Shown here piece by piece: positions 3,759 through 18,145 of a DNA stretch of 64,000 nucleotides. The first letter of the stretch is position 1; every line of letters starts with the position of its first letter. Made by a program: the position numbers and the translations under genes. Origin of the DNA: Streptomyces sp. CA-210063 (GTDB lineage Bacteria > Actinomycetota > Actinomycetes > Streptomycetales > Streptomycetaceae); NCBI RefSeq assembly GCF_024612015.1, contig NZ_CP102512.1:1860001-1924000 (forward strand), in the 5' to 3' direction. Under the pieces are notes generated by a model, which was not told where the DNA came from, searched no databases, and was given only the letters and a program-made list of their open reading frames with translations.

Positions 3759-4967
3759 TCAGGCGGTGGCAGCGGCGTAGCGGTTTGCGGGGCGGGCGAG
3801 TCCGAGGAGCCCGCGCAGGGTGTCCGCCTCGTACGTGTGCCGGAAGGCGCCCCGGCGTTGGAGTTCGGGCACCAGGCCCCGGGTGATCTGTTCCAGGTCG
3901 TGGCCGATCGCTCCGGGGCGCAGCCGGAAGCCGCTCAGTCCGGCCTCGCGCCACTCCAGCAGCAGGTCCGCCAGTTCCGCGGGCGTGCCCGTGAACACCT
4001 CCGCGTCGCTTGAGTAGGCGTATCCGGCGAGGTCGTCCAGGCGCGTCCTGCGGTCCTGCGCCGCCGTGTGATCGTCGTCCAGGAACACGACCAGGTCACC
4101 GAAGACGTGCAGCGGCTCCTCCGCCCGACCTGCCGCGGCCTGCGCTGCGCGGATCTCGGCGACGACGGCGCGGGCCTGGTCGATGTCGTGCGGGGTGACG
4201 TAACCGATGTCGGCCGAACGGCCCACCAGTTGATACGGCACGCTCTGGTGCGCGAGCGCGCTGACAACGGGCTGTCCCTGCGGCGGCCGAGGGGTGATCG
4301 AGGGTCCCTTGACGCTGAAGTGCCTGCCCTCGAAGTCGATGTAGTGCAGCTTGTCGCGGTCGATGAAGCGCCCGGTGGCGACGTCGCGGATCTCCGCGTC
4401 GTCCTCCCAGCTGTCCCACAGTCGGCGTACCACCTCGATGTGGTCGGCGGCCTCCTCGAAGAGGTCGGCGATCAGTTCCCGGCCGGCCGGGGTGTCCCGG
4501 TCCTCGGCAGGGAGAGGCGGGAAGGTGCGGCGGCCGAAGTGCGCGGCCTCGTCCTGGCGTGCCGTCACCTGGACCCGCAGGCCCGCGCGGCCGGTGCTGA
4601 CGTAGTCCAGGGTGGCGATCGCCTTGGAGATGTGGAACGGCTCGGTGTGGGTGGCGACCACGGTGGGCACCAGCCCGATGTGCCGGGTCAGCGGTGCGAC
4701 CCGGGAAGCGACCAGCACGGCGTCCAGTCGGCCCCGCACCTGGTCGGTGCGCCCGTCCAGCTCCGTCAGGTGCGAGGACTGCGGTCCGAGCGAGTCCTCG
4801 AACGTCACGAAGTCGAGCAGGCCGCGCTCGGCCTCGGTCACGAGGTCGGCCCAGTAACCGGCAGTGAACAGGTCGTGAGGCCGGGCGCCCGGCTCGCGCC
4901 ATGCGGCCGGGTGCCAACCGGTGCCGTCCAGCGCCACGGCAAGATGAAGAGGGGGATGCGCGAACAC
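3759..4967 (-). CDS. NtaA-family LLM monooxygenase, first gene after leader peptide A
   Basis: Flavin-dependent monooxygenase of about 402 residues. I chose the GTG at 4967 because GGAAGG lies 9 nt upstream and the family homology starts there (MFAHPPLHLAVALDGTGWHP); the open frame continues further upstream but that stretch overlaps a leader peptide in another frame. Recognisable parts are RLWDSWEDDAEIRD, FSVKGPSITPRPPQGQP and the C-terminal FRHTYEADTLRGLLGLARP. It closely resembles the gene at 6066-7166 and is probably a duplicate that diverged in substrate. It lies 20 nt upstream of the next LLM gene and 73 nt after the cysteine-containing leader peptide, so it is likely controlled by cysteine supply. 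Confidence 0.88.
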   Translation of the reverse strand: MFAHPPLHLAVALDGTGWHPAAWREPGARPHDLFTAGYWADLVTEAERGLLDFVTFEDSLGPQSSHLTELDGRTDQVRGRLDAVLVASRVAPLTRHIGLVPTVVATHTEPFHISKAIATLDYVSTGRAGLRVQVTARQDEAAHFGRRTFPPLPAEDRDTPAGRELIADLFEEAADHIEVVRRLWDSWEDDAEIRDVATGRFIDRDKLHYIDFEGRHFSVKGPSITPRPPQGQPVVSALAHQSVPYQLVGRSADIGYVTPHDIDQARAVVAEIRAAQAAAGRAEEPLHVFGDLVVFLDDDHTAAQDRRTRLDDLAGYAYSSDAEVFTGTPAELADLLLEWREAGLSGFRLRPGAIGHDLEQITRGLVPELQRRGAFRHTYEADTLRGLLGLARPANRYAAATA

Positions 4968-5004
4968 GAAAGGGTGCCTTCCTGGTTGACCATGTGTGAT
5001 CACC

Positions 5005-5040: not shown

Positions 5041-5169
5041 TCAGGAACGACAGAGGGCGCCGGCCACCCGTCGCAGATCGATGTGGGTCCGGGAGTACAG
5101 GCGGACACAGCCGCGCGCGACGAGAGCCTCGGCAGCCGGGACGAGCACGCGGGAAACGGAGGACAACAC
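5041..5169 (-). CDS. cysteine-containing leader peptide A
   Basis: A short reading frame in the 425-nt gap upstream of the LLM operon, reading leftward and ending in THIDLRRVAGALCRS then TGA. This C-terminus (H-I-D-L, then A-x-C just before the stop) is shared with three other short frames in this window and matches the pattern of small actinobacterial proteins annotated as putative leader peptides upstream of sulfur genes. The start is uncertain: GTG at 5169 has GGAGG 5 nt upstream; TTG at 5166 and GTG at 5175 are alternatives. The peptide is about 42 residues with two Cys, one next to the stop. Likely role: stalling at Cys codons when Cys-tRNA is scarce changes expression of the genes at 4967-1. 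Unlike the other three it has a good ribosome-binding site. Confidence 0.72.
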   Translation of the reverse strand: MLSSVSRVLVPAAEALVARGCVRLYSRTHIDLRRVAGALCRS

Positions 5170-5210
5170 CGTCACCTCCGCTCTTCCGGCTGTCTGTCCT
5201 GCTCGGACTG

Positions 5211-5263
5211 GGGTCTGCCGTGCTCGGAACGGGGTCTGCCGTGCTCCGACATGGCAGACCCCG
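5211..5263 (-). promoter_or_regulatory. alternative hairpins sharing one arm (terminator or 5' UTR switch)
   Basis: A 10-bp arm (GGGGTCTGCC on the reverse strand, 5254-5263) can pair perfectly with either of two copies of its complement, at 5231-5240 and 5211-5220. The two structures are mutually exclusive. The region is downstream of the FMN reductase gene and upstream of leader peptide A. The inner hairpin (10 bp, 13-nt loop) could terminate the upstream operon; the presence of two competing partners also allows a switch in the leader mRNA. I could not place a convincing promoter relative to it. Confidence 0.5.
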
Positions 5264-5392
5264 TGTCGTCGCAGGCTAAGCGGAGCTGGACGGACGAAGG
5301 TGGAGGGCGTGTTGCGGTTCCATGAAACCGTCCAGAGGCTCCTGGCAGGGCGGGAGTGTCAGGCGGCCTTCGTGCCGCGTCGGCGGTCACGG

Positions 5393-5959
5393 TCAAGCTG
5401 CTCGTCCGGTGGCCGCCGGCAGGGCCGTGCGGCTGCCGAGGGCTTCGGAGAACTGGTCGACGACCCGGGCGAGGGCCTCGGCCGGGCCCGGCGCGACGGT
5501 CAGGGTGCGGTCGTCGCCCACCGCGATGTCCTTGTCGAGCGTGAACCAGCCCTGGACGATGTGCGCGGCGCCCATGGAACTGAGCACGGGGCGCAGGGCG
5601 TAGTCGATCGCCAGGACGTGCGCCGTGGTCCCGCCGGTCGCCAGCGGAAGGACCGTCTTGCCGGCCAGGGCGTACTGCGGCAGCAGGTCCAGTAGGGACT
5701 TCAGCAGCCCGGAGTAGGCGGCCTTGTAGACGGGGGTGCCGATCACCACCCCGTCCGCCCGCTCGAACAGGGCCGTGGCCTCGACGATCGCCGGATGCCG
5801 GAAGTCGGCCCCGAGCAGCGCCTCGGCGGGGATCGTGCGGACGTCCAGCGGGATCACCTCGTGCCCCTGCGCGATGAGCCGGTCGTCCAGGTGGCGCAGC
5901 AGCCGTGCGGTGCGGGAGGTGGCGGAGGGGCTTCCTGAGACGGAGAGGACGGTGGACAT
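5393..5959 (-). CDS. NAD(P)H-dependent FMN reductase (SsuE-like)
   Basis: 188-residue flavodoxin-like reductase that supplies FMNH2 to two-component LLM monooxygenases. The N-terminal MSTVLSVSGSPSATSRT carries the typical SGSP-x-xSRT flavin phosphate-binding loop, and GVVIGTPVYKAAYSGLLKS is the hallmark of SsuE/MsuE proteins. The ATG at 5959 has AAGG 7 nt upstream. It is the only flavin reductase in the window, so it may serve several of the seven LLM enzymes. It is the last gene before the hairpins at 5211-5263, downstream of an LLM gene and a tiny frame. Confidence 0.93.
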   Translation of the reverse strand: MSTVLSVSGSPSATSRTARLLRHLDDRLIAQGHEVIPLDVRTIPAEALLGADFRHPAIVEATALFERADGVVIGTPVYKAAYSGLLKSLLDLLPQYALAGKTVLPLATGGTTAHVLAIDYALRPVLSSMGAAHIVQGWFTLDKDIAVGDDRTLTVAPGPAEALARVVDQFSEALGSRTALPAATGRAA

Positions 5960-5970
5960 GAGGAGACCTT

Positions 5971-6069
5971 TCAGGAGTACCGAGTGGGCTGGGACAGTTC
6001 GGGCCATCCGCGCGCCGCATGCGGCAGCTCGGTGCTGGTCGCCGCCACTGCCGTCGCGGTGTGCGTCAT
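5971..6069 (-). CDS. possible 32-residue ORF coupled to upstream LLM gene
   Basis: A short frame begins with an ATG that overlaps the stop of the LLM gene (ATGA at 6066-6069) and ends 11 nt before the reductase ATG. The product (MTHTATAVAATSTELPHAAR, then 12 more residues) has no recognisable domain, cysteine or membrane segment. The coupling geometry equals that of the genuine gene pairs here, and a similar tiny frame follows the LLM gene at 20051-21406. It may be a small protein, a translational relay to the reductase, or chance. Confidence 0.3.
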   Translation of the reverse strand: MTHTATAVAATSTELPHAARGWPELSQPTRYS

Positions 6070-7166
6070 CGGGCCGTGTCCGTCCGTCGGGCGTAGCGGT
6101 CCGCGGGGCGAGGCAGGCCGAGGTGGTCGCGGAGGGTGCGGCCGGTGTAGTCGGTGCGGAAGACTCCGCGCTCGCGCAGCGCCGGTACGAGTTCGTGGAC
6201 CACGGCGGGCAGATCGGCTGGGGCCGAGGCCGGGAGGAGGTGGAAGCCGTCGGCGCCGGAGGCCGCGTGCCAGTCGGCGAGCAGTCCGGCGAGGTCCGCG
6301 GCGGTGCCGGTGAAGCGGACTGTGTCGGCGGCTGGGAGTGAGCGGGGCCCTGGCCCGGCCCCACCGCCGAGATCGACCGCGACGCGTACCAGCACCCGCA
6401 GCGCGCCCGGGTCTCGTCCGGCCTCCGCCGTCCGGTTCAGCAGCGCCGCACGGGCGAGCCGGACGGTGGCCGGCTGATCGACGTCCAGCAGTACGACGTC
6501 GGCGTGCCCCGCGGCCAGTTCCCACTGCCCGTCGGAGTCGTGCACATCGAGGGCGACGGCGAGCGGCGGTCGCCCTTGCGGCGGGCGGGGGACCATGGAC
6601 GGCCCGCGGACGGAGACGCGCGGGCCGTCGAAGTCCATGTGGTGCGGCCGGTGTCGGTCGGTGAAACCGCCGGTGGCGGCGTCCCATATCTCCGCGCCGT
6701 CCGCCCAGCTGTCCCACAACCGGGCGGCGAACTCGGCGACGTCGGCCGCCTCGGCCCACAGCTCGGCGGCGGATGCCCGGGGGAAGCGGCTCACGGCGGG
6801 GGCCTCGGCGGTGGAGACGTCGACCTGCCAGCCGGCCCGGCCCTGACTGACGAAGTCCAGGTTGGCGAGGGCGGTGGAGGTGTGGAAGGGCTCGGTGTGG
6901 GTGGTGGTCATGGTCGGGACAAGGCCGATCCGTCTGGTCTCGGAGGCGACGCGGGCCAGTACGGCCGCCGCGTCGAGCCCGCCGCCGCTGCCGCCGGGTG
7001 GCGGCGCGGGAGAGTCGCCGACGGTCACGAAGTCCAGGGCGCCCTGCTCGGCGAGACGAACCAGGTCCGCCCAGGGGGCGGCGGTGAGGGGAGCGGTGGG
7101 ATCGGCGTCGGCGGGGTGGTGGCCGGTCCCGCCGAGGTCGAGGGAGAGGTGGAGTTCGCGGGGCAT
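6066..7166 (-). CDS. NtaA-family LLM monooxygenase
   Basis: About 366 residues from an ATG at 7166 (AGGA 9 nt upstream; protein starts MPRELHLSLDLGGTGHHP). It shares RLWDSWADGAEIWD, VSVRGPSMVPRPPQGRP and the C-terminal FRTDYTGRTLRDHLGLPRP with the gene at 3759-4967, so the two are paralogues. It is somewhat shorter than typical NtaA-group members because several loops are trimmed. A Gly/Pro-rich loop near residue 75 is encoded by a GC-rich run. It lies between the importer genes upstream and the FMN reductase downstream. An in-frame GTG at 7217 is a possible but less likely start. Confidence 0.88.
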   Translation of the reverse strand: MPRELHLSLDLGGTGHHPADADPTAPLTAAPWADLVRLAEQGALDFVTVGDSPAPPPGGSGGGLDAAAVLARVASETRRIGLVPTMTTTHTEPFHTSTALANLDFVSQGRAGWQVDVSTAEAPAVSRFPRASAAELWAEAADVAEFAARLWDSWADGAEIWDAATGGFTDRHRPHHMDFDGPRVSVRGPSMVPRPPQGRPPLAVALDVHDSDGQWELAAGHADVVLLDVDQPATVRLARAALLNRTAEAGRDPGALRVLVRVAVDLGGGAGPGPRSLPAADTVRFTGTAADLAGLLADWHAASGADGFHLLPASAPADLPAVVHELVPALRERGVFRTDYTGRTLRDHLGLPRPADRYARRTDTAR

Positions 7167-7249
7167 GACCTCGTGTCCTGTACGAAGGAGACCTGCGCGC
7201 CGGAGCGAGTCCTGCACGGAGGTGTGAGGGAAGGGAGCGGAGGGACAGG

Positions 7250-7276
7250 GGCGCGGAGGCGTGCGGCCTCCGCGCC
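7250..7276 (-). terminator. strong hairpin after the binding-protein gene
   Basis: Perfect 11-bp inverted repeat (GGCGCGGAGGC/GCCTCCGCGCC) with a 5-nt loop, starting 7 nt after the stop codon of the binding-protein gene at 7284-8267. There is no T-run. It could terminate, partly terminate or stabilise the importer mRNA upstream of the LLM gene. Confidence 0.6.
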
Positions 7277-7283
7277 GGGTCGG

Positions 7284-8267
7284 CTATGTGTTGGTCCTGG
7301 GCAGGCCGCGCGGGTTGATCTCGGACTTGGTCACGGCCTCGTCGGACAGGCCCCAGCGCTGAAGCACCTTCGCGTATGTGCCGTTCTCGATGACCTCGTT
7401 GAGAGCGTCGGCGAGCGGCTTGACCAGTCCGCTGTCCTTCTTGGTGGTGGCCGCGATGAGGCCCTGGAGGGTGGCGCCGGCACCGGAGTACGTGCCGACG
7501 ACCTCCGTCTTGCCGGTGGTGGCCGCGTGGTAGGCGGCGGTGGGGTTGGGGCCGAGGTAGAGGTCGATCCGGCCGGACTGGAGGGCGAGGTAGGTGTCGC
7601 TGTCGTTCTGGTAGTACTTGATGTCCACCGGCTCGCGGCCGGCCTTCTCGTTGTCCTTGCTCCACTCGATGAGCAGCTTCTCCTGGTTGGTGCCGCTGCC
7701 CACCGCGACCGTCTTGCCCGCCACGTCCTCGGGCCCGGTGATCTTCAGGCCGCTGCCCTTCTTCGCCTCGAAGCCCAGGTTGTCCTCGCGGTAGGTGGCG
7801 AAGTCGTACTTCTCCTTGCGCTCCTCGGTGACGGTGATGTTGCTGAAACCGACGTCGTACTTGGCGCTGTCGAGGCCGACGAAGATGTTCTCCCAGGAGA
7901 CCGTGTTGATGTGCAGCTTGAGGTCGAGCACGTCGGCGACCAGAGAGGCGATGTCGGGCTCGACGCCGATGACGGTCTTGTTGTCGGTGGCGAAGAAGGT
8001 CAGCGGCGCGGCGGAGCCGGACGAGTCGACGATCTCCAGGGTGCCTCTCCTGCGGATCTCCTCCGGGACCTGGGCGGCTATGGAGTCGACCTTGTCGGTG
8101 GTGATGCGGTTCTGGTCCGGGCTCAGGTTGATCTTCGTCTTGCTGCCCGACGTGTCCGCGACCTCGGTCGTGCCGCCGTCGTCGGGGTTGCCGCACGCGG
8201 CGAGGACGAGGGCGGCGGCGAGTCCGAGCGCGGCTGCGGCGGTGCGGCGGGTGATCGAGGTGGACAT
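7284..8267 (-). CDS. polar amino acid-type ABC importer, substrate-binding lipoprotein 1
   Basis: 327-residue extracellular binding protein of the polar amino acid (cystine/glutamine) family. The N-terminus is a lipoprotein signal with Cys25 in LVLAAC. Solute-binding signatures follow: IVDSSGSAAPLTFFATDNKT, GVEPDIASLVADVLDLKL, KYDVGFSNITVTEERK and a C-terminal LQRWGLSDEAV. RBS AAGGAG precedes the ATG. It lies 38 nt after the ATPase gene and is a distant paralogue of the second binding protein at 10144-11100. Among monooxygenases and cysteine leaders, cystine or an S-substituted cysteine is the most likely ligand, by inference. Confidence 0.92.
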   Translation of the reverse strand: MSTSITRRTAAAALGLAAALVLAACGNPDDGGTTEVADTSGSKTKINLSPDQNRITTDKVDSIAAQVPEEIRRRGTLEIVDSSGSAAPLTFFATDNKTVIGVEPDIASLVADVLDLKLHINTVSWENIFVGLDSAKYDVGFSNITVTEERKEKYDFATYREDNLGFEAKKGSGLKITGPEDVAGKTVAVGSGTNQEKLLIEWSKDNEKAGREPVDIKYYQNDSDTYLALQSGRIDLYLGPNPTAAYHAATTGKTEVVGTYSGAGATLQGLIAATTKKDSGLVKPLADALNEVIENGTYAKVLQRWGLSDEAVTKSEINPRGLPRTNT

Positions 8268-8305
8268 GGTCGTGCTCCTTGCTTGCGGAAAGGGGGGAGG
8301 GTTGG

Positions 8306-9108
<803 letters not shown>

Positions 9109-9112
<4 letters not shown>

Positions 9113-10122
9113 CGGCTGTCTCCCAAGGGCTTCAGGGGTATGACGGGCTGGTCGCGCCGGGCGGCGGCCACGCGCAGGGTGCGGACGAAGCGGCGGGCGC
9201 GCTGGATCGGGGTGGGCGGCGGGGTGCGGTTGGCGCCCCGGGCGTAGCGGCGCTCCACGTAGTACTGCGCGACCGACAGCAGGGAGGTGAGGACCACGTA
9301 CCAGGCGGTGGCGACCAGCAGCAGCGGGATCACCCGGCCGTTGCGGCCGTAGATCACCTGCACCTGGTAGAAGAGTTCGCCGATGGACATCACGTAGACC
9401 ACCGAGGTGCCCTTGAGCAGGCCGATGATCTCGTTGCCGGCCGTGGGCAGGATGGCGCGCATGGCCTGCGGCAGCACGATCCGGCGGATCTGCCGGAGCC
9501 GGGGAATGCCCAGCGCGGCGGCCGCCTCCAGCTGTCCGTGGTCGACGGCGATGACGCCGCCGCGCACGATCTCGGCGGCATAGGCGGCCTGGTGCAGCGT
9601 CAGCCCGATGATGGCCGCGCCCATGGTGCCGATGATGCTGTTGCTGTCGACGGACCAGAACACCGGGCCGAAGGGGATGCCGAAGCCCAACTCCTCGTAC
9701 AGGGCACTCAGGTTGAACCAGAACACCAGCTGGACGATCATCGGGATGGACCGGAAGATCCAGATGTAGGTCCAGGCGACGGTCTGCAGCACCGGACTGC
9801 GCGAGAGCCGCATGAAGGCCAGGACGGTGCCCAGGAGGAAGCCCAGCACGGTGGCGTAGGCGGTGAGCTGGAGGGTCACCCACACCGCCTGCACGATCGT
9901 CTCGGACAGGATGTAGTCGCGGAAGACGCCCCACTCCCAGACCGGGTTGGTGGCCAGCCCGTGCACGAACTGGGCGACCAGCACGGTCACGGCGACGGCC
10001 GCCACCCAGCGGGCGTAGTGGCGGGCGGGGACGACCTTGAGCGAGGCCGGGTCGTCCGGGGCTTCGCGGCCAGTGCCCGGGGTGGCCGCGCCGGGCGGCG
10101 CGGTGTCGGTTGTGGATGCCAT
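9109..10122 (-). CDS. polar amino acid-type ABC importer, permease 1
   Basis: 337-residue inner-membrane permease of the HisM/GlnP family. Start ATG at 10122 (AGGA 8 nt upstream). The EAA loop is EAAAALGIPRLRQIRRIVLP, followed by QAMRAILPTAGNEIIGLLKG, both hallmarks of the family. Several hydrophobic helices are visible, including the first at about residues 40-60. The N-terminal about 30 residues and C-terminal about 40 are charged and cytosolic. It is strikingly similar to the permease at 13469-14503, transcribed in the opposite direction 3.3 kb away. Confidence 0.93.
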
Positions 10123-10143
10123 CGTGATGTTCCTGCTCAACTC

Positions 10144-11100
10144 TTATGCGTGCTCGGGCGGGTTGATCCGCGACGTCTCGATCGCGGAGGCGGAGGTGCC
10201 CCACTTCTTGAGGATCCGGGCGTACGTGCCGTCCTTGATCAGCTCGTTGACGGCGGACTGGAACGCCTTGGTGAGCGGGGAGCCCTTCTTGAAGGCGAAG
10301 CCGACGTCGAGGCGGTGGTACTCACCGAGGAACGCGGTCTGCGAGGCGGGCTGTGCCGCCTGGTGGCGCAGGCCGTTGATGGTCGACATGACCACATCGA
10401 TCCGGCCCTGCTGGAGCGCGGTGAGAGTTGCCCCGTTCTCCGAGTAGACCTTCACGTCGTACGGCTTCTTGCCCGCCTTGGTGCACACCCCCTTCCGCGC
10501 GGTGAGGGTGGCCTCGAAGGTGGTGCCGGCGCCGGTGCCGATGGTCAGCCCGCACAGCTGGGTGAGGTCGGTGACCTTCTTCTTCAGCGCGGTGTTGCCC
10601 GTCTTCACCGCGAAGCCCTGGCCATCGTTGATGTAGGTGACGAAGTCGATGGTCTTCAGGCGTTCGGTGGTGACGCCGAAGTTGCCGGTCCCGAAGTCGT
10701 ACTTGCCGCTGCCGAGGGCGGGCAGGATCGTCTCGAAGGAGGCATACTGGCGCTCCAGCTTGACGCCGAGGACCTTGGCCACCGCGTCGGCGATGTCGAT
10801 GTCCTGGCCGGCGGGTGGCTTGTCCTGCCCGTTCGGGTAGTACGCCCCGGGCGGGAATCCGACCGAGCTGCCGACCCGCAGCGTGCCCGCTTCACGGACG
10901 TCGGCGGGCAGCAGGGCGGCGACGGAGTCCACCTTGCGTACGGCGCCGACCGGGTCGTCGGTCGACGCGGGGGGTGCCTGAGCACCCGCCGGTGTGGTGC
11001 CGGAGGTGTCGCCGGAACCACAGGCGGTCAGCGCCAGTACGGGCAGCAGCGCGATGGCCGCGACGATGCGCAGGCGGGTTCTGATCGGGCGCAGGTTCAC
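10144..11100 (-). CDS. polar amino acid-type ABC importer, substrate-binding lipoprotein 2
   Basis: 318-residue binding lipoprotein (lipobox Cys27 in LALTAC) of the cystine/glutamine family. GTG start at 11100 overlaps the acetyltransferase stop (GTGA). Signatures include LRVGSSVGFPPGAYYPNG, QDIDIADAVAKVLGVKL, YDFGTGNFGVTTERLK and IDVVMSTINGLRHQ. It lies 21 nt upstream of the permease. Two binding proteins with one ATPase imply that two ligands feed one membrane complex, as in the B. subtilis TcyJKLMN system for cystine and S-methylcysteine derivatives. Confidence 0.92.
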   Translation of the reverse strand: MNLRPIRTRLRIVAAIALLPVLALTACGSGDTSGTTPAGAQAPPASTDDPVGAVRKVDSVAALLPADVREAGTLRVGSSVGFPPGAYYPNGQDKPPAGQDIDIADAVAKVLGVKLERQYASFETILPALGSGKYDFGTGNFGVTTERLKTIDFVTYINDGQGFAVKTGNTALKKKVTDLTQLCGLTIGTGAGTTFEATLTARKGVCTKAGKKPYDVKVYSENGATLTALQQGRIDVVMSTINGLRHQAAQPASQTAFLGEYHRLDVGFAFKKGSPLTKAFQSAVNELIKDGTYARILKKWGTSASAIETSRINPPEHA

Positions 11101-11621
11101 AGGTCGGCTGCCTTTCCCGTGCGTGCTGTGCGGGCTTCGGCCGGCAGATGCTTCTCGAAGGGCAGCGGGCCGATGGTTTCCGGGTCGGCCTCGGTGTCGA
11201 ACAGCGGTGTGTAGCCGGTGGCCAGGTACAGGCCGCGGGCCTCGGGCTGGCGCGGTCCGGTGGTCAGGTAGATCCGCCGGTAGCCGCGGGCACTCGCCTC
11301 GCGCTCCAACTCGGCGACGACGCGTCCGGCGAGGCCGCGCCTCCGGTGGGCGGAGTGCGTCCAGATCCGCTTCAGCTCGGCCGTGGTCGCGTCGTACCGG
11401 CGGAAGGCACCGCCCGCGACCGGCTCGCCACGTTCGAGGAGCAGGAGCAGCGCGCCGCCGTACGGCGTGGTGAACTCCTCGTCCGGATAGCGGGCCAGTT
11501 CGGCGTGGGCGTCCCTGCCGTAGCGTCGTGAGTACTCGTCGCCGAGTTCGCGCAGCAGGGGCTTCACTCTCGGGTCGCTGACGGTGACTTGAGTGATCGT
11601 CAGGTCGGGCGCGGACGTCAT
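11097..11621 (-). CDS. GNAT-family N-acetyltransferase
   Basis: 174-residue GCN5-related acetyltransferase using acetyl-CoA. The pyrophosphate-binding motif A appears as RRRGLAGRVVAELEREA, and the C-terminal ARGLYLATGY is characteristic. Its ATG overlaps the SsuD-like stop (ATGA) and its own stop overlaps the next start, so it is firmly in the operon. In B. subtilis a GNAT enzyme (SnaA/YtmI) in the tcy/cmo operon acetylates S-(2-succino)cysteine before monooxygenase attack. The placement here suggests a comparable step on an imported S-substituted cysteine. This is inference from context. Confidence 0.9.
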   Translation of the reverse strand: MTSAPDLTITQVTVSDPRVKPLLRELGDEYSRRYGRDAHAELARYPDEEFTTPYGGALLLLLERGEPVAGGAFRRYDATTAELKRIWTHSAHRRRGLAGRVVAELEREASARGYRRIYLTTGPRQPEARGLYLATGYTPLFDTEADPETIGPLPFEKHLPAEARTARTGKAADL

Positions 11622-12769
11622 CCGTTCACCGCCGCCAGGTCCTGTGTGCCGCGCGCCGCCCGCTCGGCGTCGCGCTTGGCGACCTCCTCGCGGACGATCG
11701 GGATGACGTACCGGCCGAAGTCGATGGCGTCGTCCAGGAGGTCGTAGCCGCGGGCGGAGAGGATGTCGACGCCGAGGTCGTAGTAGTCAAGGAGCGCCTG
11801 GGCGACCGTTTCCGGGGTGCCGACCAGGGCGTTGGAGTTGCCCGCGCCTCCGGTGGCGGCGGCGGTCGGGGTCCACAGGGCGCGGTCGTAGCGCTCCCCC
11901 GCCTCGGCGATGGCGATCAGCCGCTGCGAGCCGACGTTCTGAGGTGGTGCGGCCTGCGACTGGGCGTGCCCGTTGTGACGCTTGGTGATCGCCTCGCCCT
12001 TCTCCTTGCGGGCCTTGATCGCGCCGACCGTGCGGTGGGCCTTCTCCCAGGCCAGCTCCTCGGTCGGGGCGATGATCGGGCGGAACGCCACCTGGATGCG
12101 GGGCACGCCGGTGCGGCCCGCGGCCTTCGCGGCGGCCTTCACGTTCTCGATCTGCTCGGTGGTCTTCGCGAGGGGCTCGCCCCACAGGCAGTAGATGTCG
12201 GCCTCCGCGCCTCCCGCGGCGTACGCGGCGGGCGACGAGCCGCCGAACGAGACGTCGGGGCGGGGCTGTCGGGCCGGGAAGACGTCGCTGACGAAGTCGT
12301 GGAAGCGGTAGTGCTCGCCCTCGTGGTCGAAGGGCTCGCGGGTGGTCCAGATCTTCTTGACGATCCGGATGTACTCGCGGGTGCGGGCGTAGCGCTCGTC
12401 CTTGGTGAGGGTGTCGCCCTCACGGCCCTGCTCTCGGTCGTTGCCGCCGGTGATGAAGTGCACGGTCAGCCGGCCGTCGCTGATCTGGTCGAGGGTGGCG
12501 AAGGTCTTGGCTGCGAAGGTCGGGTACGAGACGTTGGGCCGGTGGGCGAGCAGAATCTGGAGGCGGTCCAGTCTGCTCGCGATGTACGCGGCTGCCGGTG
12601 CGGGATCCGGCGACCCGGAGCCGTAGGCGAACAGCACCCGGTCCCAGCCGTGGTCCTCGTGCGCCCGGGCGAGCCGGAGAGCGTACTCCTTGTCGAAGGC
12701 GGCGCCGGAGCGCGGGGTGGTTTCGGAGCCGTCGTTGGTGGCGGCGATGCCGAGGAACTCCACGGGCAT
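11618..12769 (-). CDS. SsuD-like FMNH2-dependent alkanesulfonate monooxygenase
   Basis: 383-residue LLM enzyme with clear SsuD features: MPVEFLGIAATNDGSET, HRPNVSYPTFAAKTFATLDQ, GRLTVHFITGGND, a VSFGGSSPAAYAAG segment, a WGEP and a C-terminal GNSNALVGTPETVAQAL. SsuD cleaves alkanesulfonates to aldehyde and sulfite using FMNH2. The ATG at 12769 has an AGGAAAGG upstream. It is the first structural gene of the long leftward operon headed by leader peptide B (stop at 13092), with a 320-nt untranslated leader between them. Coupled by 4 nt to the acetyltransferase. Confidence 0.92.
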   Translation of the reverse strand: MPVEFLGIAATNDGSETTPRSGAAFDKEYALRLARAHEDHGWDRVLFAYGSGSPDPAPAAAYIASRLDRLQILLAHRPNVSYPTFAAKTFATLDQISDGRLTVHFITGGNDREQGREGDTLTKDERYARTREYIRIVKKIWTTREPFDHEGEHYRFHDFVSDVFPARQPRPDVSFGGSSPAAYAAGGAEADIYCLWGEPLAKTTEQIENVKAAAKAAGRTGVPRIQVAFRPIIAPTEELAWEKAHRTVGAIKARKEKGEAITKRHNGHAQSQAAPPQNVGSQRLIAIAEAGERYDRALWTPTAAATGGAGNSNALVGTPETVAQALLDYYDLGVDILSARGYDLLDDAIDFGRYVIPIVREEVAKRDAERAARGTQDLAAVNG

Positions 12770-13064
12770 GGGGGATGGCCTTTCCTCAAGTCCTCTGGGG
12801 CCGGGCCGTGTTGAGCACGCGGGCACGGCGGAGCAGCCCTCGATGCGGCCGGGTGTGACGGCGCTTCAGGGCGCTGGGAACGGGTGGTGAGCGGGTGTGA
12901 CGACGCCGGGGCGGGTGCCTCGGGTGAGGTCGGGCGGCGGCAGCAGCGCGCGTCAGGTCTCGCAAGCGTTTCCGTACGCGGATTCAGCGCGTGGTGAGCG
13001 CGTGCGTACGACGGTGCTGCGAGGGGAGGAACTCGGCCCGCGACGGGGTCACCGAGGGAGGGAA

Positions 13065-13082
13065 GGGCCGGTCAGACGGCCC
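13065..13082 (-). promoter_or_regulatory. hairpin after leader peptide B
   Basis: 6-bp GC-only inverted repeat (GGGCCG/CGGCCC) with a 6-nt loop, about 10 nt after the stop of leader peptide B and followed in the transcript by a pyrimidine-rich run (TTCCCTCCCTC). It fits an attenuator position. The remaining leader to 12770 has no coding sequence that I can support. Confidence 0.45.
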
Positions 13083-13091
13083 GCTGCCGCA

Positions 13092-13169
13092 TCAGGCGCA
13101 ACACGCTGCGGACCACACCCGACCGAAGTCGATGTGGTCACGGGTGACCAGGCGCTGATCGGCATTCAT
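13092..13169 (-). CDS. cysteine-containing leader peptide B
   Basis: 25-residue frame ending in HIDFGRVWSAACCA and TGA, with two adjacent Cys codons one codon before the stop. It shares H-[IV]-D-[LF] and A-x-C with the other three leaders of the window. There is no Shine-Dalgarno sequence; a TTGACG starts 36 nt before the ATG and a CAATTA sits just upstream, so transcription probably begins at or next to the ATG (leaderless). It heads the operon from 12769 leftward (SsuD-like enzyme, acetyltransferase, importer). Expected function: cis-acting cysteine sensor. A frame on the opposite strand covers the same DNA but has no such signals. Confidence 0.78.
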   Translation of the reverse strand: MNADQRLVTRDHIDFGRVWSAACCA

Positions 13170-13174
13170 GCGAT

Positions 13175-13205
13175 TAATTGAGCAGTACATCTCGCTTCTC
13201 GTCAA
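13175..13205 (-). promoter_or_regulatory. promoter of leader peptide B operon
   Basis: On the reverse strand TTGACG (13205-13200) is followed after 19 nt by CAATTA (13180-13175), 5 nt before the ATG of leader B. The spacer is slightly long, but the position matches the two other leaderless leaders here. Confidence 0.55.
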
Positions 13206-13251
13206 CTACGGCCCGGATGCCGGACCGGTGTCGAGCGGTTCCTGGGCGTGG

Positions 13252-13282
13252 TTGACACATGCGCGCGGTGCGCCCCTACGAT
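13252..13282 (+). promoter_or_regulatory. promoter of rightward permease gene
   Basis: TTGACA at 13252-13257 and TACGAT at 13277-13282 with a 19-nt spacer. It is divergent from the leader B promoter, whose -35 is only 47 bp away, so one regulator could cover both. Confidence 0.5.
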
Positions 13283-13346
13283 CGAGGCCGGACCGGCTCC
13301 GCCGCGCGCGGAAGCCGTACCTGCCGCGTTGAGGGACGCGGCGAGC

Positions 13347-13469
13347 GTGATGACGGCGAAACCCAGCCACCACCCCCGGTGCCCGCGCTGTGTGTGCCCG
13401 GATTCCGCGACCATCCGCCGCCGGGTGGTCACCGACGCCCGCGCCTCCCTCCCCTGGAGATCCTCCTGA
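13347..13469 (+). CDS. possible cysteine-rich upstream ORF of permease 2
   Basis: 40-codon frame from a GTG at 13347 (GAGGGA 10 nt upstream) or ATG at 13350, ending in a TGA that overlaps the permease ATG (TGATG at 13467-13471). It contains CPRCVC, three Cys within six codons, which is unusual for this DNA. It lacks the H-x-D motif of the other leaders. It could be a second type of cysteine sensor acting by translational coupling, but coding status is uncertain. Confidence 0.35.
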   Translation: MMTAKPSHHPRCPRCVCPDSATIRRRVVTDARASLPWRSS

Positions 13470-14503
13470 TGGCCTCGCCGTCCGACATCACCGATCCCTC
13501 CCTCCTCTCCGCATCCGCCCCACCCGCACGAGATCTCAAAGCCTCCGGCAGCCAGGACCCCACGGACGACCTGCCACGGATCATGCCGCGCCGGCACGTC
13601 GGCCGTCGGCTGACCGCTGCCGCCGCGCTGCTGGTCTTCGCGATGGTGGTCAACTCCGTCGTCCGCAACCGCGCCTTCCAGTGGGATGTGGTGGGCCGGT
13701 ACTTCACCACCGCCGCCGTGCTCGACGGGTTGCTGCTCACACTGTGGCTGACCGGTGTGGTGATGGTGCTCGGCTTCCTGCTCGGCACCCCGCTGGCGGT
13801 GATGCGGCTGTCCGCCAACCCGGTGCTGCGTACGCTGAGTTGGGGCTATGTGTGGATCTTCCGGTCCACCCCGCTGCTGGTGCAGCTGCTGTTCTGGTTC
13901 AACATCGGCGCCCTCTACCCGACGCTCGGCCTCGGCATCCCCTTCGGGCCCCAGTTCGTCACCGTCGAGACGGTCAACCTGCTCGGTCCCACCCTCACCG
14001 CCGTCATCGGGCTGACCCTGCACGAAGCCGCGTACGCCGCGGAGGTGGTGCGCGGCGGCATCCTGTCGGTGGACGCCGGCCAGACGGAGGCCGCCCAGGC
14101 TCTCGGTATCGGCAGGCGGCGCACCCTGCGCCGGATCGTCATCCCGCAGGCGATGCGCTCCATCGTCCCGACTGCGGGGAACATGCTGATCGGCACCCTG
14201 AAGGGCACCAGCATCGTCAGCGTGCTGGCCGTGCACGACCTGCTCTACTCGGTGCAGCTGGTCTACAACCAGACCTACCAGGTCATCCCGCTACTGATGG
14301 TGGCCACCCTCTGGTACATCGCCGTCACGACCGTGCTCAGCGTGGGGCAGTTCTACGTCGAGCGCTCCTACGCACGTGGCTCCGCCCGCGCGCTGCCGCC
14401 CACGCCTGTGCAGAGGCTCAGGGGCCATCTGGCCGCGCTTCGTGCCCGACTGGGTGCGGCGACCGCGGCCGAGGCCCGTCCCGCGATCGGCGGGGACCGG
14501 TGA
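13469..14503 (+). CDS. polar amino acid-type ABC importer, permease 2
   Basis: 344-residue permease from an ATG at 13469, homologous along its length to the permease at 9109-10122. EAA loop: EAAQALGIGRRRTLRRIVIP, then QAMRSIVPTAGNMLIGTLKG. The N-terminal about 45 residues are Ser/Pro/Asp-rich and cytosolic. It has no ATPase or binding protein beside it, so it presumably uses the partners in the divergent operon, making a two-permease importer as in TcyL/TcyM. The next gene to the right begins with leader peptide C, 91 nt after its stop. Confidence 0.92.
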   Translation: MASPSDITDPSLLSASAPPARDLKASGSQDPTDDLPRIMPRRHVGRRLTAAAALLVFAMVVNSVVRNRAFQWDVVGRYFTTAAVLDGLLLTLWLTGVVMVLGFLLGTPLAVMRLSANPVLRTLSWGYVWIFRSTPLLVQLLFWFNIGALYPTLGLGIPFGPQFVTVETVNLLGPTLTAVIGLTLHEAAYAAEVVRGGILSVDAGQTEAAQALGIGRRRTLRRIVIPQAMRSIVPTAGNMLIGTLKGTSIVSVLAVHDLLYSVQLVYNQTYQVIPLLMVATLWYIAVTTVLSVGQFYVERSYARGSARALPPTPVQRLRGHLAALRARLGAATAAEARPAIGGDR

Positions 14504-14531
14504 GCCCACCTGTGGTGTCGCGCGCCCTACA

Positions 14532-14554
14532 TTTCCTATCGATTTACTAGGAAA
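14532..14554. promoter_or_regulatory. 7-bp inverted repeat upstream of leader C promoter
   Basis: TTTCCTA (14532-14538) and TAGGAAA (14548-14554) form a perfect dyad with a 9-nt AT-rich centre, ending 4 nt before the TTGACG of the leader C promoter. The local AT-richness is unusual here. This suits a binding site for a dimeric regulator, perhaps the OmpR-type protein encoded downstream. Confidence 0.5.
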
Positions 14555-14557
14555 GCA

Positions 14558-14587
14558 TTGACGGCCCGTCCAACGGGCGCGCAGGAT
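14558..14587 (+). promoter_or_regulatory. promoter of leader peptide C unit
   Basis: TTGACG (14558-14563), 18-nt spacer, CAGGAT (14582-14587). Predicted transcription start falls at about the leader ATG (14595), as for leaders B and D. Confidence 0.5.
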
Positions 14588-14594
14588 GATGCAC

Positions 14595-14678
14595 ATGTCC
14601 CACACGCAGCAACGACTCGTTCGTCGTCGGCATGTCGACTTTGGTCACGTCGTCAGCGCCGCCTGCTGTCGCGTGTAA
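14595..14678 (+). CDS. cysteine-containing leader peptide C
   Basis: 27-residue frame (MSHTQQRLVRRR at the N-terminus, HVDFGHVVSAACCRV at the C-terminus, then TAA). It has two adjacent Cys codons two codons before the stop and is very similar to leader B. ATG at 14595; two further in-frame ATGs lie just upstream (14586, 14589). The predicted promoter places transcription start at about the ATG, so it may be leaderless, although AGGA lies 8 nt upstream. An 8-bp hairpin begins at the base after the stop codon. It heads the unit of the OmpR-type regulator and SfnB-like enzyme. Confidence 0.8.
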   Translation: MSHTQQRLVRRRHVDFGHVVSAACCRV

Positions 14679-14706
14679 GGCACGCGGCTCACACCTCACG
14701 CGTGCC
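14679..14706 (+). terminator. attenuator-like hairpin directly after leader C stop
   Basis: Perfect 8-bp stem GGCACGCG/CGCGTGCC with a 12-nt loop. The first base of the stem follows the TAA of leader C, so a ribosome at the stop codon would cover its 5' arm. A pyrimidine-rich tract (GTTCCGCTCCTTCTCTCTC) follows. Confidence 0.55.
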
Positions 14707-14736
14707 GTTCCGCTCCTTCTCTCTCATTCCCGGTGA

Positions 14737-14763
14737 TCAGGCGCACCCATCCACCGCGCCTGA
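14737..14763 (+). promoter_or_regulatory. second hairpin in leader C mRNA
   Basis: Perfect 8-bp stem TCAGGCGC/GCGCCTGA with an 11-nt loop, ending 31 nt before the regulator ATG at 14795. It may act with the hairpin at 14679-14706 as a tandem control element. Confidence 0.45.
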
Positions 14764-14794
14764 CAGCCCGACGTACTTCTGAAGGACGACCGCC

Positions 14795-15370
14795 ATGACC
14801 ACGGCACTTCCGGCCCAGGCCACTCCATCGGACTCACCGCTCACCGACATGCGCCATCTCCGCCTCGTGGGCGACACCGCGCGGAACGGCGACGAAGGAA
14901 ACGGTTCCGCTCCCCTCGTCGGCTATCTCGTGCTCGTCCCCGAGGGCACCGATCCCGCCCAGCTCTTCGCCAAGGACGTGACACGGCCGGAGATCCGACC
15001 GGTCGCCTACACGGCCTCGCCTCCCGTGCGGCAGACGGAGGCGGGAGGCGGTGTCGTGCGCATCGATCCCACGCGGTGTGTCGCAGAGGTGGACGGAACC
15101 GAACTGGACCTCACCTACCTGGAGTTCGGGCTGCTGACCCATCTCGTACAGCAGCCCCACCGGGTGCACTCCCGCGAGCAGTTGATGGCCGCCATCTGGG
15201 GATACGACCACATCGGCGACGGCCGGACCGTGGACGTCCACATCGCGCGGCTGCGCCGCAAGCTGGGCACCGCCCACCGGCACCAGATCGTCACCGTGCG
15301 GCGCGTGGGCTACAAGTACGTGCCCAACCAGCAGGAGAGCACCAACACCGCACCGTGCCGCCGACCTTGA
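14795..15370 (+). CDS. orphan OmpR/PhoB-type winged-helix DNA-binding protein
   Basis: 191-residue protein whose C-terminal half is a canonical OmpR/PhoB effector domain: LDLTYLEFGLLTHLVQQP, then HSREQLMAAIWGYDH, DGRTVDVHIARLRRKLG and VTVRRVGYKYV. The N-terminal about 80 residues contain no phosphoacceptor receiver domain, and no sensor kinase lies nearby, so activity is probably not controlled by phosphorylation. RBS GAAGGA sits 8 nt before the ATG. Translation follows a cysteine leader and two hairpins, so its synthesis is likely tied to sulfur status. It is 13 nt upstream of the SfnB-like gene. It is the obvious candidate for a cluster regulator. Confidence 0.9.
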   Translation: MTTALPAQATPSDSPLTDMRHLRLVGDTARNGDEGNGSAPLVGYLVLVPEGTDPAQLFAKDVTRPEIRPVAYTASPPVRQTEAGGGVVRIDPTRCVAEVDGTELDLTYLEFGLLTHLVQQPHRVHSREQLMAAIWGYDHIGDGRTVDVHIARLRRKLGTAHRHQIVTVRRVGYKYVPNQQESTNTAPCRRP

Positions 15371-15383
15371 GGAGACCCCTGCC

Positions 15384-16607
15384 ATGGGCGTTGCCACTGC
15401 GCCGTCCGGCCCCGCCTCGGAATCCGACCGGACCGGGCCCGGCCGTGCGCACTGGCTGCGCGTGGCCCGCGAGACGGCGGACGACCTGGCCACGGACGCG
15501 GTGGCCCGGGAGCAGGCGGGCAAGGCCCCGTTCGACGAGGTGTCCCGGCTGCGCGAGGCGGGACTGCTGACTCTCCTCATACCGGCCGAGCTCGGGGGAG
15601 GCGGCGCGGACTGGCCCACGGCCTACGCCGTCGTCCGGAAGATCGCCACAGCCGACGGCGCGATCGGTCAACTGCTCAGCTGTCACTACTTCCTGTCGTG
15701 GAGCGTCCGGTTCTTCACCGAGCCCGCCCACACCGCTCAGATCGAGCAACGGTCCGCGGCGGAGCAGTGGTGCTGGGGTGGTGGTTACGCCCGCCGGCCC
15801 GTGACGCTGACCAGGACAGCCGGCGGCTATGCGCTCGACGGCCGGCAGAGTTACGCCACCGGGGTCCTGGTCGCCGACCGGCTCGCCGTGCGGGCCGTAC
15901 AGGCCGATACAGGCGAACCACACGCCGTCGTCGTCGATCCCGCCCATCACGGCGTGGGGATCGACGGCGACGCCGACACGTTCGGCCAGCGGCTCGCGGC
16001 CGGCGGGAACGTGGAGTTCGACGGTGTACCGGTGGCCGCCGACGACGTACTCGGCTCCCTGTCCGTGGACGAGGCCGACCTGTCGCCCCTGGCCGCTCTG
16101 ACATCGCCGGTCGGGCGTCTCCTCTCCGTCCAGCTCCGCCTCGGCATGGCTGAGGGAGTCCTGGCCGAGGCCCGTGAGTACCGCAGGGCCGGCCAGTCCC
16201 CCTGGCCCCCCGCCCCGCCGGTCTCCTCCCCCCAGGACCCGGAGGTGCTGACCGCCTACGGAGAACTCACCGTCCTCACCCGCGCCTCGTCCGCGCTCGC
16301 CGATCAAGCACTGGAAGCCGTGCACGACGGGCTGGCACGAGGCGAAGACCTCACCTACGACGAGTACGCGGAGATCTCGGTCCTCGTGGCCATGGCCGAA
16401 ACCGCCGCCTCCAGGGCCGCGCAGGAGTCCACCGCCCGCGCCCTCGACATCATCGGCGCCCGCTCCGCGTCCGCACGGCTGGGCTTCGACCGCTTCTGGC
16501 GCAATGCCCGCACCCACACCCTGTACGAGCCCGTCACTCACCGGCTCCGTGATGTCGGGGACTATTTCCTCAATGGTGCGCACCCCGAGTTCGTCCTGCC
16601 TGTCTGA
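15384..16607 (+). CDS. SfnB/DszC-like acyl-CoA-dehydrogenase-fold flavin monooxygenase
   Basis: 407-residue member of the acyl-CoA dehydrogenase fold, closest in pattern to the sulfur-acquisition oxidoreductases (SfnB) and DszC-like flavin monooxygenases rather than true dehydrogenases. Visible parts: LREAGLLTLLIPAELGGGGA in the N-terminal helical domain, QWCWGGGYARRPVTLTRTAGG in the middle domain and FDRFWRNARTHTLYEPV near the C-terminus, the last a signature of this subgroup. ATG at 15384 with GGAG upstream. It would need FMNH2 or FADH2 from a reductase. Context points to sulfone or thioether oxidation. Confidence 0.88.
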   Translation: MGVATAPSGPASESDRTGPGRAHWLRVARETADDLATDAVAREQAGKAPFDEVSRLREAGLLTLLIPAELGGGGADWPTAYAVVRKIATADGAIGQLLSCHYFLSWSVRFFTEPAHTAQIEQRSAAEQWCWGGGYARRPVTLTRTAGGYALDGRQSYATGVLVADRLAVRAVQADTGEPHAVVVDPAHHGVGIDGDADTFGQRLAAGGNVEFDGVPVAADDVLGSLSVDEADLSPLAALTSPVGRLLSVQLRLGMAEGVLAEAREYRRAGQSPWPPAPPVSSPQDPEVLTAYGELTVLTRASSALADQALEAVHDGLARGEDLTYDEYAEISVLVAMAETAASRAAQESTARALDIIGARSASARLGFDRFWRNARTHTLYEPVTHRLRDVGDYFLNGAHPEFVLPV

Positions 16608-16750
16608 CCTTGCGATGCCGCTCGGCTTTTCCCCGGCGAACTCGGCGTGATCGAAATTGGCTACGCAACCCGGCATCCAGACAATTGTGAACGCCGCACT
16701 TCACTCACGTGTCGGTCGGTTGAGAATATGAGACGCCTGCGCGGGCGACA

Positions 16751-16778
16751 TTGACTTGGCCGGATTTCGCTGCAACTC
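16751..16778 (+). promoter_or_regulatory. promoter of leader peptide D operon
   Basis: TTGACT at 16751-16756 begins 36 nt before the GTG of leader D; a weak -10 (CAACTC, 16773-16778) follows after 16 nt. Geometry equals that of leaders B and C. Confidence 0.45.
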
Positions 16779-16786
16779 TCTTGGCT

Positions 16787-16870
16787 GTGAGCAAGTCCGA
16801 GAACCTCGCCGCGCGCCTGCACGTCGATCTGCGACGTCAGGCCAGCGCCATCTGTGCCGTCGGCCTCTGA
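16787..16870 (+). CDS. cysteine-containing leader peptide D
   Basis: 27-residue frame, GTG start, ending LHVDLRRQASAICAVGL and TGA. The H-V-D-L-R-R and S-A-I-C core aligns with the other leaders; here a single Cys lies five codons before the stop. No ribosome-binding site precedes the GTG and the predicted promoter places the RNA 5' end near it, so translation is probably leaderless. It lies 231 nt upstream of the SsuA-type binding-protein gene and heads the ssu-like operon 17102-22419. Confidence 0.77.
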   Translation: MSKSENLAARLHVDLRRQASAICAVGL

Positions 16871-17101: not shown

Positions 17102-18145
17102 ATGGCCACGACCGTATCGACCCGACGCCAGTTTCTCTCCCTGCTCGGTCTTTCCGCGGTGGCCGTGAGCTGCGGCACGACCGCGACCGGGGCCACTTCC
17201 GGCAAGAACCAGACGAAGACCCTCAGATACCAGGGATGGGCAGGCCAGGTCACTTTGCCGGAGTTGGCCGAGGACCTCGGCTATGTGGAGGACGTGAAGC
17301 TGGAGTGGGTCGGCAACACCATCAGCGGGCCGCAGGACATCCAGTCCGCGGCCACGGGCCAGGTCGACTTCGGCGGCGCGTTCAACGGCGCGGTCGTCAA
17401 ACTGGCCGCGAACAACGCCCCCATCAAGGCGGTCATCAGCTACTACGGCTCCGACAAGTACGCCTACAGCGGCTACTACGTCCTCGAGGACAGCCCGATC
17501 CGCTCGGCCAGGGACCTGGTCGGCAAGAAGGTCGGGATGAACACCCTCGGAGCCCACTCCGAAGCCATGCTCGACATCTATCTGCAGAGAGGCGGCCTGT
17601 CCCGGGCACAGATCGGCGATGTCGAGCCACTCGTGGTTCCACCGGTCAACACCGAGCAGACGCTGCGCCAGAAGCAGATCGACGTGGCCGTGCTCGGCGG
17701 CATTCTGCGCGACAAGGCACTGGCGACCGGGGGCATCCGCCCGCTGTTCACCGACTATGAGCTGCTCGGCGCATTCAGCGCTGGAACCTACGTGATGACG
17801 GACCGCTTCCTGAAGCAGAACCCCGACACGGCCCGAATCTTCGTCACCGCCGTGGGGCGGGCCATCGAGTGGACCCGTTCCACTCCGCACGAAGAGGTCG
17901 TCGCCCGGATGACGGACATCGTGAAGAAGCGCGGCCGCAATGAGGACACCGCACCCCTGAAGTTCTGGCGGTCCTACGGCGTCGCCGAGAAGGCGGGGCT
18001 GATCACCGGCAAGGAACTCCAGTTGTGGATCGACTGGCTGGCCGACCGCGGTGACATCAAGAAGGGCCAGGTCACGTTGTCGGACCTGTACACCAACGAG
18101 TTCAACGGCAACCAGAAGTCCTCCGCCGCGACGAGCGGGAGCTGA
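17102..18145 (+). CDS. ssuA: SsuA-like sulfonate ABC transporter substrate-binding lipoprotein
   Basis: 347-residue periplasmic-type binding protein of the aliphatic sulfonate/nitrate/taurine family. The N-terminus has a Tat motif (TRRQFLSLLG) followed by a lipobox ending in Cys, so it is probably a Tat-exported lipoprotein. Features include LRYQGWAGQVTLPELAEDLG, QVDFGGAFNGAVVKLAAN, VLEDSPIRSARDLVGKKVG and QKQIDVAVLGGILRDKA. AGGA lies 7 nt before the ATG. It is followed by ATPase, permease, a monooxygenase and a TauD-like enzyme in one operon, and preceded by cysteine leader D. Ligand probably an alkanesulfonate. Confidence 0.9.
   Translation: MATTVSTRRQFLSLLGLSAVAVSCGTTATGATSGKNQTKTLRYQGWAGQVTLPELAEDLGYVEDVKLEWVGNTISGPQDIQSAATGQVDFGGAFNGAVVKLAANNAPIKAVISYYGSDKYAYSGYYVLEDSPIRSARDLVGKKVGMNTLGAHSEAMLDIYLQRGGLSRAQIGDVEPLVVPPVNTEQTLRQKQIDVAVLGGILRDKALATGGIRPLFTDYELLGAFSAGTYVMTDRFLKQNPDTARIFVTAVGRAIEWTRSTPHEEVVARMTDIVKKRGRNEDTAPLKFWRSYGVAEKAGLITGKELQLWIDWLADRGDIKKGQVTLSDLYTNEFNGNQKSSAATSGS

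Follow-up and report, generated by a model that had tools for sequence, protein, structure and literature searches.

Cysteine-responsive attenuation has reportedly been described in Mycobacterium smegmatis by Canestrari et al. in 2020 (Mol Microbiol), at polycysteine, leaderless short open reading frames (ORFs) for which a ribosome-directed regulon was proposed. This work on M. smegmatis polycysteine leaders (Canestrari et al. 2020) is cited in passages of PMC9031893, PMC9094748 and PMC13236596, and a passage of PMC4633059 places ribosomes on such an ORF in the same species. Candidate cys leaders had been listed earlier by Seliverstov et al. (2005) in Mycobacterium, Propionibacterium (P. acnes) and Bifidobacterium (B. 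longum), according to an excerpt of that paper (PMC1262725). Here we describe four short Cys-containing frames (leaders 1 to 4) that stand before the genes of an organosulfur island in a 64,000-nt stretch of Streptomyces sp. CA-210063 (contig NZ_CP102512.1, positions 1,860,001 to 1,924,000; this whole stretch is called the window below), which sits in a 10.86 Mb one-contig genome. These leaders are additional members of an already known kind, the cysteine attenuators, and their family extends beyond the island; the new element is a near-invariant UGU, the rarer Cys codon, at a fixed distance from a conserved peptide.

Like the M. smegmatis polycysteine ORFs, the leaders of the window are short ORFs upstream of cysteine or sulfur genes, with Cys codons near the stop and with several operons that would answer one signal. 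They differ in often holding one or two Cys codons and not a run, in standing before organosulfur-scavenging and winged-helix genes, and in apparent output structures that vary between leaders. The run of consecutive Cys codons of the mycobacterial type is absent from leaders 1 to 4: a single Cys lies near the stop in leaders 1 and 4 (leader 1 has another far upstream), and two adjacent ones in leaders 2 and 3. The leaders of Seliverstov et al. (2005), as given in the excerpt (PMC1262725), are similar in having Cys codons near the stop, there upstream of cys operons or cbs, and in lacking a conserved terminator, with Rho suggested instead, but they do have Cys runs, and no Streptomyces cys leader is among those given there. 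Farther afield, a uORF (upstream ORF) called uORFC-8-2, before cysS in Rhodobacterales, likewise contains two Cys codons and has been proposed to act by attenuation, whereas UGC dominates there and a terminator with a U-run is present, in the excerpted text (PMC8632094). A reannotation of S. lividans counts eight leader peptides, none for cysteine, in the portion of the paper covered here (PMC8079986), and the literature searched, with most subscription papers outside its scope, contained neither the UGU rule nor any report of a Streptomyces Cys leader.

A fixed UGU codon in a class-wide leader family

A preliminary description of this DNA had placed the four frames, with their C-termini, at the heads of sulfur units and judged them too similar for chance. 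All four were recovered with those C-termini, the start codon of leader 1 being one of several candidates, and the pattern H[IV]D[LF]-x5-7-A-x-C-x0-5-stop has four matches in the six frames of the window and none in 300 dinucleotide-preserving shuffles. Downstream lie LLM (luciferase-like monooxygenase), SsuA/ABC and winged-helix/SfnB-like units, which agrees with their placement at the heads of sulfur units. The further claim, that peptides of this look are annotated as putative leader peptides, was borne out, and kinship to mycobacterial-type leaders supported, by two protein families. NF042934 ('putative leader peptide', cis_reg_atten; curated cut-off 27 bits) is passed by leader 1 (31.9 bits) and leader 4 (28.5 bits), and its cut-off is not reached by leader 2 (no match) or leader 3 (13.8 bits). 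The latter two are nearer to NF042936 (leader_Ms4527A, a mycobacterial-type Cys-rich leader family; curated cut-off 45 bits), where leaders 1 to 4 all stay below the cut-off with 15.9, 22.9, 16.9 and 14.6 bits, respectively. Both models record the peptide, not the codon, the promoter or the mechanism.

Taxonomically, NF042934 leaders were found in 61/61 Streptomyces genomes (the one studied here included) and in 89 of 118 genomes of the class at E ≤ 0.001 (78/118 over the cut-off; the 118 include 8 Streptomyces), and in 0/14 control genomes at E ≤ 0.001. NF042936 is rare, with hits in 5/119 genomes of the phylum at E ≤ 1e-5, three of them over its cut-off. The genome of CA-210063 itself holds eight NF042934 places over the cut-off, some before cysO/cysM, cysteine dioxygenase, sulfite reductase and rhodanese genes. 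The earlier proposal of one family coordinating one island thus stands in part: related leaders do head its sulfur units, but the family is class-wide and not private to the island, and 'coordinates' can mean no more than several operons sensing the same Cys-tRNA.

At the codon level, we read the regulatory Cys in 167 leaders sampled with a hidden Markov model (HMM), which comprised 30 loci and 60 further listed rows of a Streptomyces search, 30 loci (4 of them Streptomyces) and 40 non-Streptomyces rows of a class search, and 7 places of the own genome, leaders 1 and 4 of the window included. Rows were hand-picked among the matches listed and every leader of the 167 was counted; one own-genome place (L008) was omitted, its match ending at model position 17, before the Cys. 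At the model's last Cys, 11 codons after the H or A of [HA]-x-D-L, the codon is UGU in 167/167 leaders, 101 from Streptomyces and 66 from other families in that class, which a hand count puts at 54 genomes and 23 families. It is also UGU in 20/20 further leaders taken from lower listed class rows, all over the cut-off (a row close to the end of a contig was skipped), and in 5/5 NF042936 hits, three over that family's cut-off, a likeness to the mycobacterial leader after which the family is named. The other Cys codons of the 167 leaders are mostly UGC, at 120 UGC vs 10 UGU upstream and 67 UGC vs 17 UGU downstream, and background usage is 6 UGU of 49 Cys codons in 27 hand-listed ORFs of the window, or a UGU fraction of 0.198 of 243 in a second set with some wrong frames mixed in. 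The search did not favour the codon, because a protein model was used. The His, Asp, Leu and Arg codons of the leader motif vary about as in the background, and the conserved stretch is therefore constrained as a peptide. All these UGU counts ignore kinship, although leaders that come from related genomes or precede the same gene cannot be treated as independent.

The same place was read in 80 related loci around the SsuD-like gene that follows leader 2 (78/80 named Streptomyces, with Saccharothrix also present). UGU is found in 77/77 leaders of the leader 2 type (78/78 with the window copy counted), 7/7 of the leader 1 type and 6/6 of the leader 4 type, in 27/27 and 6/6 of two further kinds, and in 2/2 others; the leader 2 count adds less than the others because that whole stretch is conserved at the DNA level. 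Among genes with at least 450 nt upstream in these loci, a leader precedes the SsuD-like gene in 76/78 loci, Saccharothrix included, the winged-helix gene in 12/12 orthologues and the SsuA gene in 5/5, and the DszC-like gene, second in its unit here, in 5/33. No leader precedes either of the two substrate-binding protein (SBP) genes inside the leader 2 operon (0/48 each), the divergent permease at 13469 (0/53), SsuE (0/28) or a third LLM (0/4).

Functionally, the genes after 165 of the 167 sampled leaders fall into 29 clusters: cysteine dioxygenase (CDO, 27 members), CysO (ThiS family, 19), DUF4395 (18), rhodanese (18), sulfite reductase (18), sulfatase (12), LLM (12), CysM (11), CysH (3) and 20 clusters of one to three members. 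The seven plain sulfur clusters (CDO, CysO, CysM, rhodanese, sulfite reductase, sulfatase and CysH) account for 108/165 downstream genes, a figure that stands without a computed background rate, such sulfur genes being a small part of any genome. Enrichment near sulfur genes in related genomes, which the preliminary description had named as its check, thus appears as a strong association. Clusters were identified from one scanned member each, with some small clusters unscanned and two of nine proteins in one scan without a match, and the downstream genes were chosen by an automatic ORF rule, so that some small clusters may be wrong ORFs. The DUF4395 cluster (named from its scanned member) gathers 18 genes after NF042934-type leaders, in L155 and 17 further loci, which hints at a sulfur role for DUF4395.

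Probable sensing of charged tRNA-Cys and its alternatives

From these sequence features, we consider it very likely that the four frames each encode a leader peptide with a regulatory role, the sensing of charged tRNA-Cys. A conserved peptide, R-x-[HA]-[VIM]-D-[LF]-x-R, lies at a fixed distance before the Cys read from UGU, and 3 or 4 codons are left before the stop in 102/167 sampled leaders. With Cys-tRNA in short supply, the ribosome would wait with UGU in its A site, cover the tail of the leader and free the next gene. The tRNA-Cys gene of the own genome has the anticodon GCA (one full-length match), and no other Cys anticodon occurs among the tRNA genes read from 71 loci, which gave two GCA readings, maybe of one gene in overlapping loci. 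Since only tRNA-Cys(GCA) was seen, UGU needs wobble reading, and this G-U wobble may make it the slower codon, if slowness in Streptomyces is assumed. Attenuator codon choice has been explained by competition between isoacceptor tRNAs (in a passage of PMC1183508); with only tRNA-Cys(GCA) seen, such competition would not apply here, and some other reason must be sought for a synonymous choice that hardly varies. The pause at UGU may be prolonged by the conserved nascent chain in the upper tunnel; as H/A to L stand 8–11 residues ahead of the Cys in the A site, this chain would lie near the tunnel constriction. When cysteine is low, the island would then raise organosulfur import and desulfonation, together with the genome's other leaders, so that in Streptomyces cysteine attenuation would also cover organosulfur scavenging and the gene of a regulator; the UGU rule also bears on the way in which one or two Cys codons could suffice for a leader to detect starvation. 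We further posit, as a tentative idea to which we give somewhat less than even weight, that actinobacterial cysteine leaders, those with Cys runs included, could be single-codon sensors, in which one wobble-read UGU, 11 codons after [HA]-[VI]-D-[LF], is made decisive by the chain in the upper tunnel and the Cys run is an elaboration. If true, wobble reading could make the leader sensitive to tRNA-Cys modification, itself sulfur-dependent.

Some of the same data would also suit an arrest peptide, one that responds inside the ribosome to free cysteine or a different sulfur metabolite and does not gauge Cys-tRNA charging; we regard this as unlikely. It would account for the peptide constraint at a fixed distance from the Cys, where R and D are invariant and L is present in 165/167 leaders while their codons vary (model selection adds to this constancy), and for the 42/167 leaders in which core and tail together contain only one Cys, a low number for a gauge of starvation. 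TnaC, however, senses tryptophan in the ribosome by stalling at termination, whereas here between 0 and 22 codons separate the Cys from the stop, so that stalling would not be at termination as in TnaC; moreover, a constraint that is synonymous, on UGU, points to decoding of that codon. Slightly less probable still, in our estimate, is that UGU owes its constancy to RNA pairing or to a role as an RNA signal and not to decoding. In its favour, leader 2 shows RNA structure both within the frame and beyond its stop, with almost every base of that stretch conserved, and the UGU of leader 1 can itself pair with GGCA beside the Shine-Dalgarno sequence of the next gene. Yet the longest duplexes that include UGU in 80 distinct leaders are no longer than with shuffled partners (6.83 vs 6.67 downstream; 7.09 vs 6.94 upstream), no other base from 12 before to 15 after UGU is fixed in the 167 leaders, and UGC, G-U pairs being allowed, would bind most partners no less well. 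Across the leaders, RNA pairing thus fails to account for UGU. Finally, ordinary translated uORFs that hand ribosomes to the next gene without sensing, suggested by the leaderless transcripts and small upstream ORFs that a passage of PMC4633059 calls common in mycobacteria, are a highly improbable explanation, as they leave the sequence conservation, the sulfur-gene association and the UGU rule without a reason.

Proposed output stage and start of the leader RNA

If the leaders gauge charged tRNA-Cys as preferred above, the output stage probably differs between them. The tail and stop of leader 1 can pair with the Shine-Dalgarno sequence of the LLM gene behind it, which would give translational attenuation, and translational attenuation of this sort has been reported for mycobacteria. 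Over 18 distinct leader-1-type loci, the mean duplex is −11.1 kcal/mol, vs −10.1 with other leaders' tails (p 0.02) and −9.5 with shuffled ones (p 0.002). Nested segments after the stop are seen in leader 2, and by eye in leader 3 too, and in leader 2 they would permit a trp-like choice of hairpins. The hairpin directly after the leader 2 stop has 90.8% of its cells paired in 78 sequences, vs 19–65% when slid, with few two-sided changes, and its alternative partner GGGCC is present in 58/78 sequences vs 16.4 expected by shuffling, kinship being ignored. RNAalifold on leader 2 returned the in-leader hairpin and short stems only, and of the terminator with a U-run after alternative hairpins, as in trp-type attenuators, there was no sign at leaders 1 to 3 and one weak candidate after leader 4. 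We rejected the idea that HxD[LF] is kept in the family for a codon-level RNA hairpin (z −0.21 in 80 distinct leaders). By type, z is −0.41 for leader 3 (n=16), −0.41 for leader 4 (n=7) and +0.87 for a further kind, RRHID[FL]GRTSSAIC (n=27), and the in-leader hairpin is retained for leader 2 alone. Local fold scores are weak in the 80 distinct leaders (mean z −0.52 just before the Cys and −0.68 at 20–60 nt after it), and no Rfam family matches the window over its gathering score. For 64 distinct leaders, the probability that the gene's Shine-Dalgarno sequence is unpaired is 0.242 with a free leader vs 0.297 with shuffled upstream RNA (p 0.009); with a masking ribosome at UGU the value rises a little, to 0.295 (p 0.02). 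On these results, the case for the sensing stage is firmer than that for the output stage.

Promoter-like sites were found by eye and by TTGAC spacing just before leaders 2, 3 and 4; leader 1 has no TTGAC site at such spacing. The starts at 13169, 14595 and 16787 (leaders 2, 3 and 4) agree with the promoter spacing, and from these predicted sites the transcripts would begin at the start codon. Among sampled leaders, TTGAC lies 35–38 nt before an in-frame start in 52/167 and 105/141 (157/308 together), with a peak at 36–37, a count made without a shuffled control.

Several observations weigh against the reading of these leaders as sensors of charged tRNA-Cys with the output and start proposed. 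The UGU rule is broken by the leader 3 type, which has UGC at the fixed place in 14/16 and UGU one codon on in 11/16, while 4/16 relatives have UGU at neither place. Place L008 of the own genome (contig 979010-979060) is over the NF042934 cut-off and has no terminal Cys, being perhaps a decayed leader, and the leader-1 LLM is preceded by a leader in 7/17 orthologues. On the output side, 4/18 leader-1-type tails pair with the Shine-Dalgarno sequence no better than other leaders' tails, a free leader lowers the accessibility of this sequence only slightly relative to shuffled RNA, and placing the ribosome at UGU (0.295) or at the stop (0.310) makes no difference (p 0.68). Intrinsic terminators were absent at leaders 1 to 3, with one weak candidate after leader 4 (1 vs 0.4 expected). 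As for the start, strict consensus scans gave no promoter at any of the four leaders, and TTGAC distances of 15, 28, 31 and 54 peak too in the island loci, since a single site is measured against more than one in-frame start, in leaders akin to one another.

Genes of the organosulfur island

The units behind the leaders look like sulfur scavenging, from their complement of LLM monooxygenases, SsuE, a DszC/SfnB-like enzyme and SsuA-like and amino-acid-type transporters. An NCBIfam scan of ten proteins passed curated cut-offs only for the SsuE match and for the LLM at 20051, so that the substrates suggested by the names in the table below are tentative. Besides the SsuD-like LLM, the leader 2 unit contains a GNAT protein and ABC genes of the amino-acid type, their ATPase being nearest to the cystine family, and an SsuE-type FMN reductase is among the island genes.

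Table 1. Leaders, candidate RNA and promoter elements, and genes of the island (positions within the window)
Feature	Position	Strand	Remarks
Leader 1	5041-5175	minus	tail ...RTHIDLRRVAGALCRS; regulatory TGT 5050-5052; start codon one of several candidates, 5169 among them
Leader 2	13092-13169	minus	MNADQRLVTRDHIDFGRVWSAACCA; regulatory TGT 13101-13103
Leader 3	14595-14678	plus	MSHTQQRLVRRRHVDFGHVVSAACCRV; Cys codons TGC 14664-14666 and TGT 14667-14669; breaks the spacing rule
Leader 4	16787-16870	plus	MSKSENLAARLHVDLRRQASAICAVGL, GTG start; regulatory TGT 16853-16855
Shine-Dalgarno AGGAAGG of the leader-1 LLM gene	4977-4983	minus	complementary to leader 1 tail (UGUCGUUCCUG with CAGGAAGGCA, one bulge)
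Hairpin with UUCG loop	13114-13136	minus	encoded by HIDFGRVW of leader 2; mean z −2.31 vs synonymous sequences, n=77
Hairpin GGGCCG/CGGCCC	13065-13082	minus	directly after leader 2 stop; alternative partner GGGCC 13035-13039
Promoter-like TTGACG-18-TCAATT	13176-13205	minus	6 nt before leader 2 ATG; by eye and TTGAC spacing
Promoter-like TTGACG-18-CAGGAT	14558-14587	plus	7 nt before leader 3 ATG; by eye and TTGAC spacing
Promoter-like TTGACT-17-AACTCT	16751-16779	plus	7 nt before leader 4 GTG; by eye and TTGAC spacing
LLM monooxygenase gene	3759-4967	minus	73 nt after leader 1; nearest NtaA/DmoA, below that family's cut-off
SsuD-like LLM monooxygenase	11618-12826	minus	first gene after leader 2; below SsuD cut-offs
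OmpR-type winged-helix protein without receiver domain	14795-15370	plus	first gene after leader 3
DszC/SfnB-like flavoenzyme, acyl-CoA dehydrogenase fold	15384-16607	plus	second gene after leader 3; below both cut-offs
SsuA-like SBP, ABC ATPase, permease, NtaA/DmoA LLM	17102-21406	plus	after leader 4; the LLM, last of these, is over its cut-off

Also considered was a fifth frame with a Cys, located before the permease at 13469; it was discarded because the related loci compared offer no clear counterpart. Near the island in other Streptomyces, the leader kind RRHID[FL]GRTSSAIC was seen 27 times, in loci L028 to L104, before a gene that was not a query. The leader of the winged-helix gene, leader 3, is the one that departs from the UGU rule. 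Just upstream of leader 1, at 5192-5254, lie three tandem 21-nt direct repeats (GTCTGYCNTGCTCSGA core) with an overlapping inverted repeat, and elsewhere in the window the repeat has one copy with 2 mismatches, which is chance level. These repeats resemble operator sites, perhaps of the winged-helix protein.

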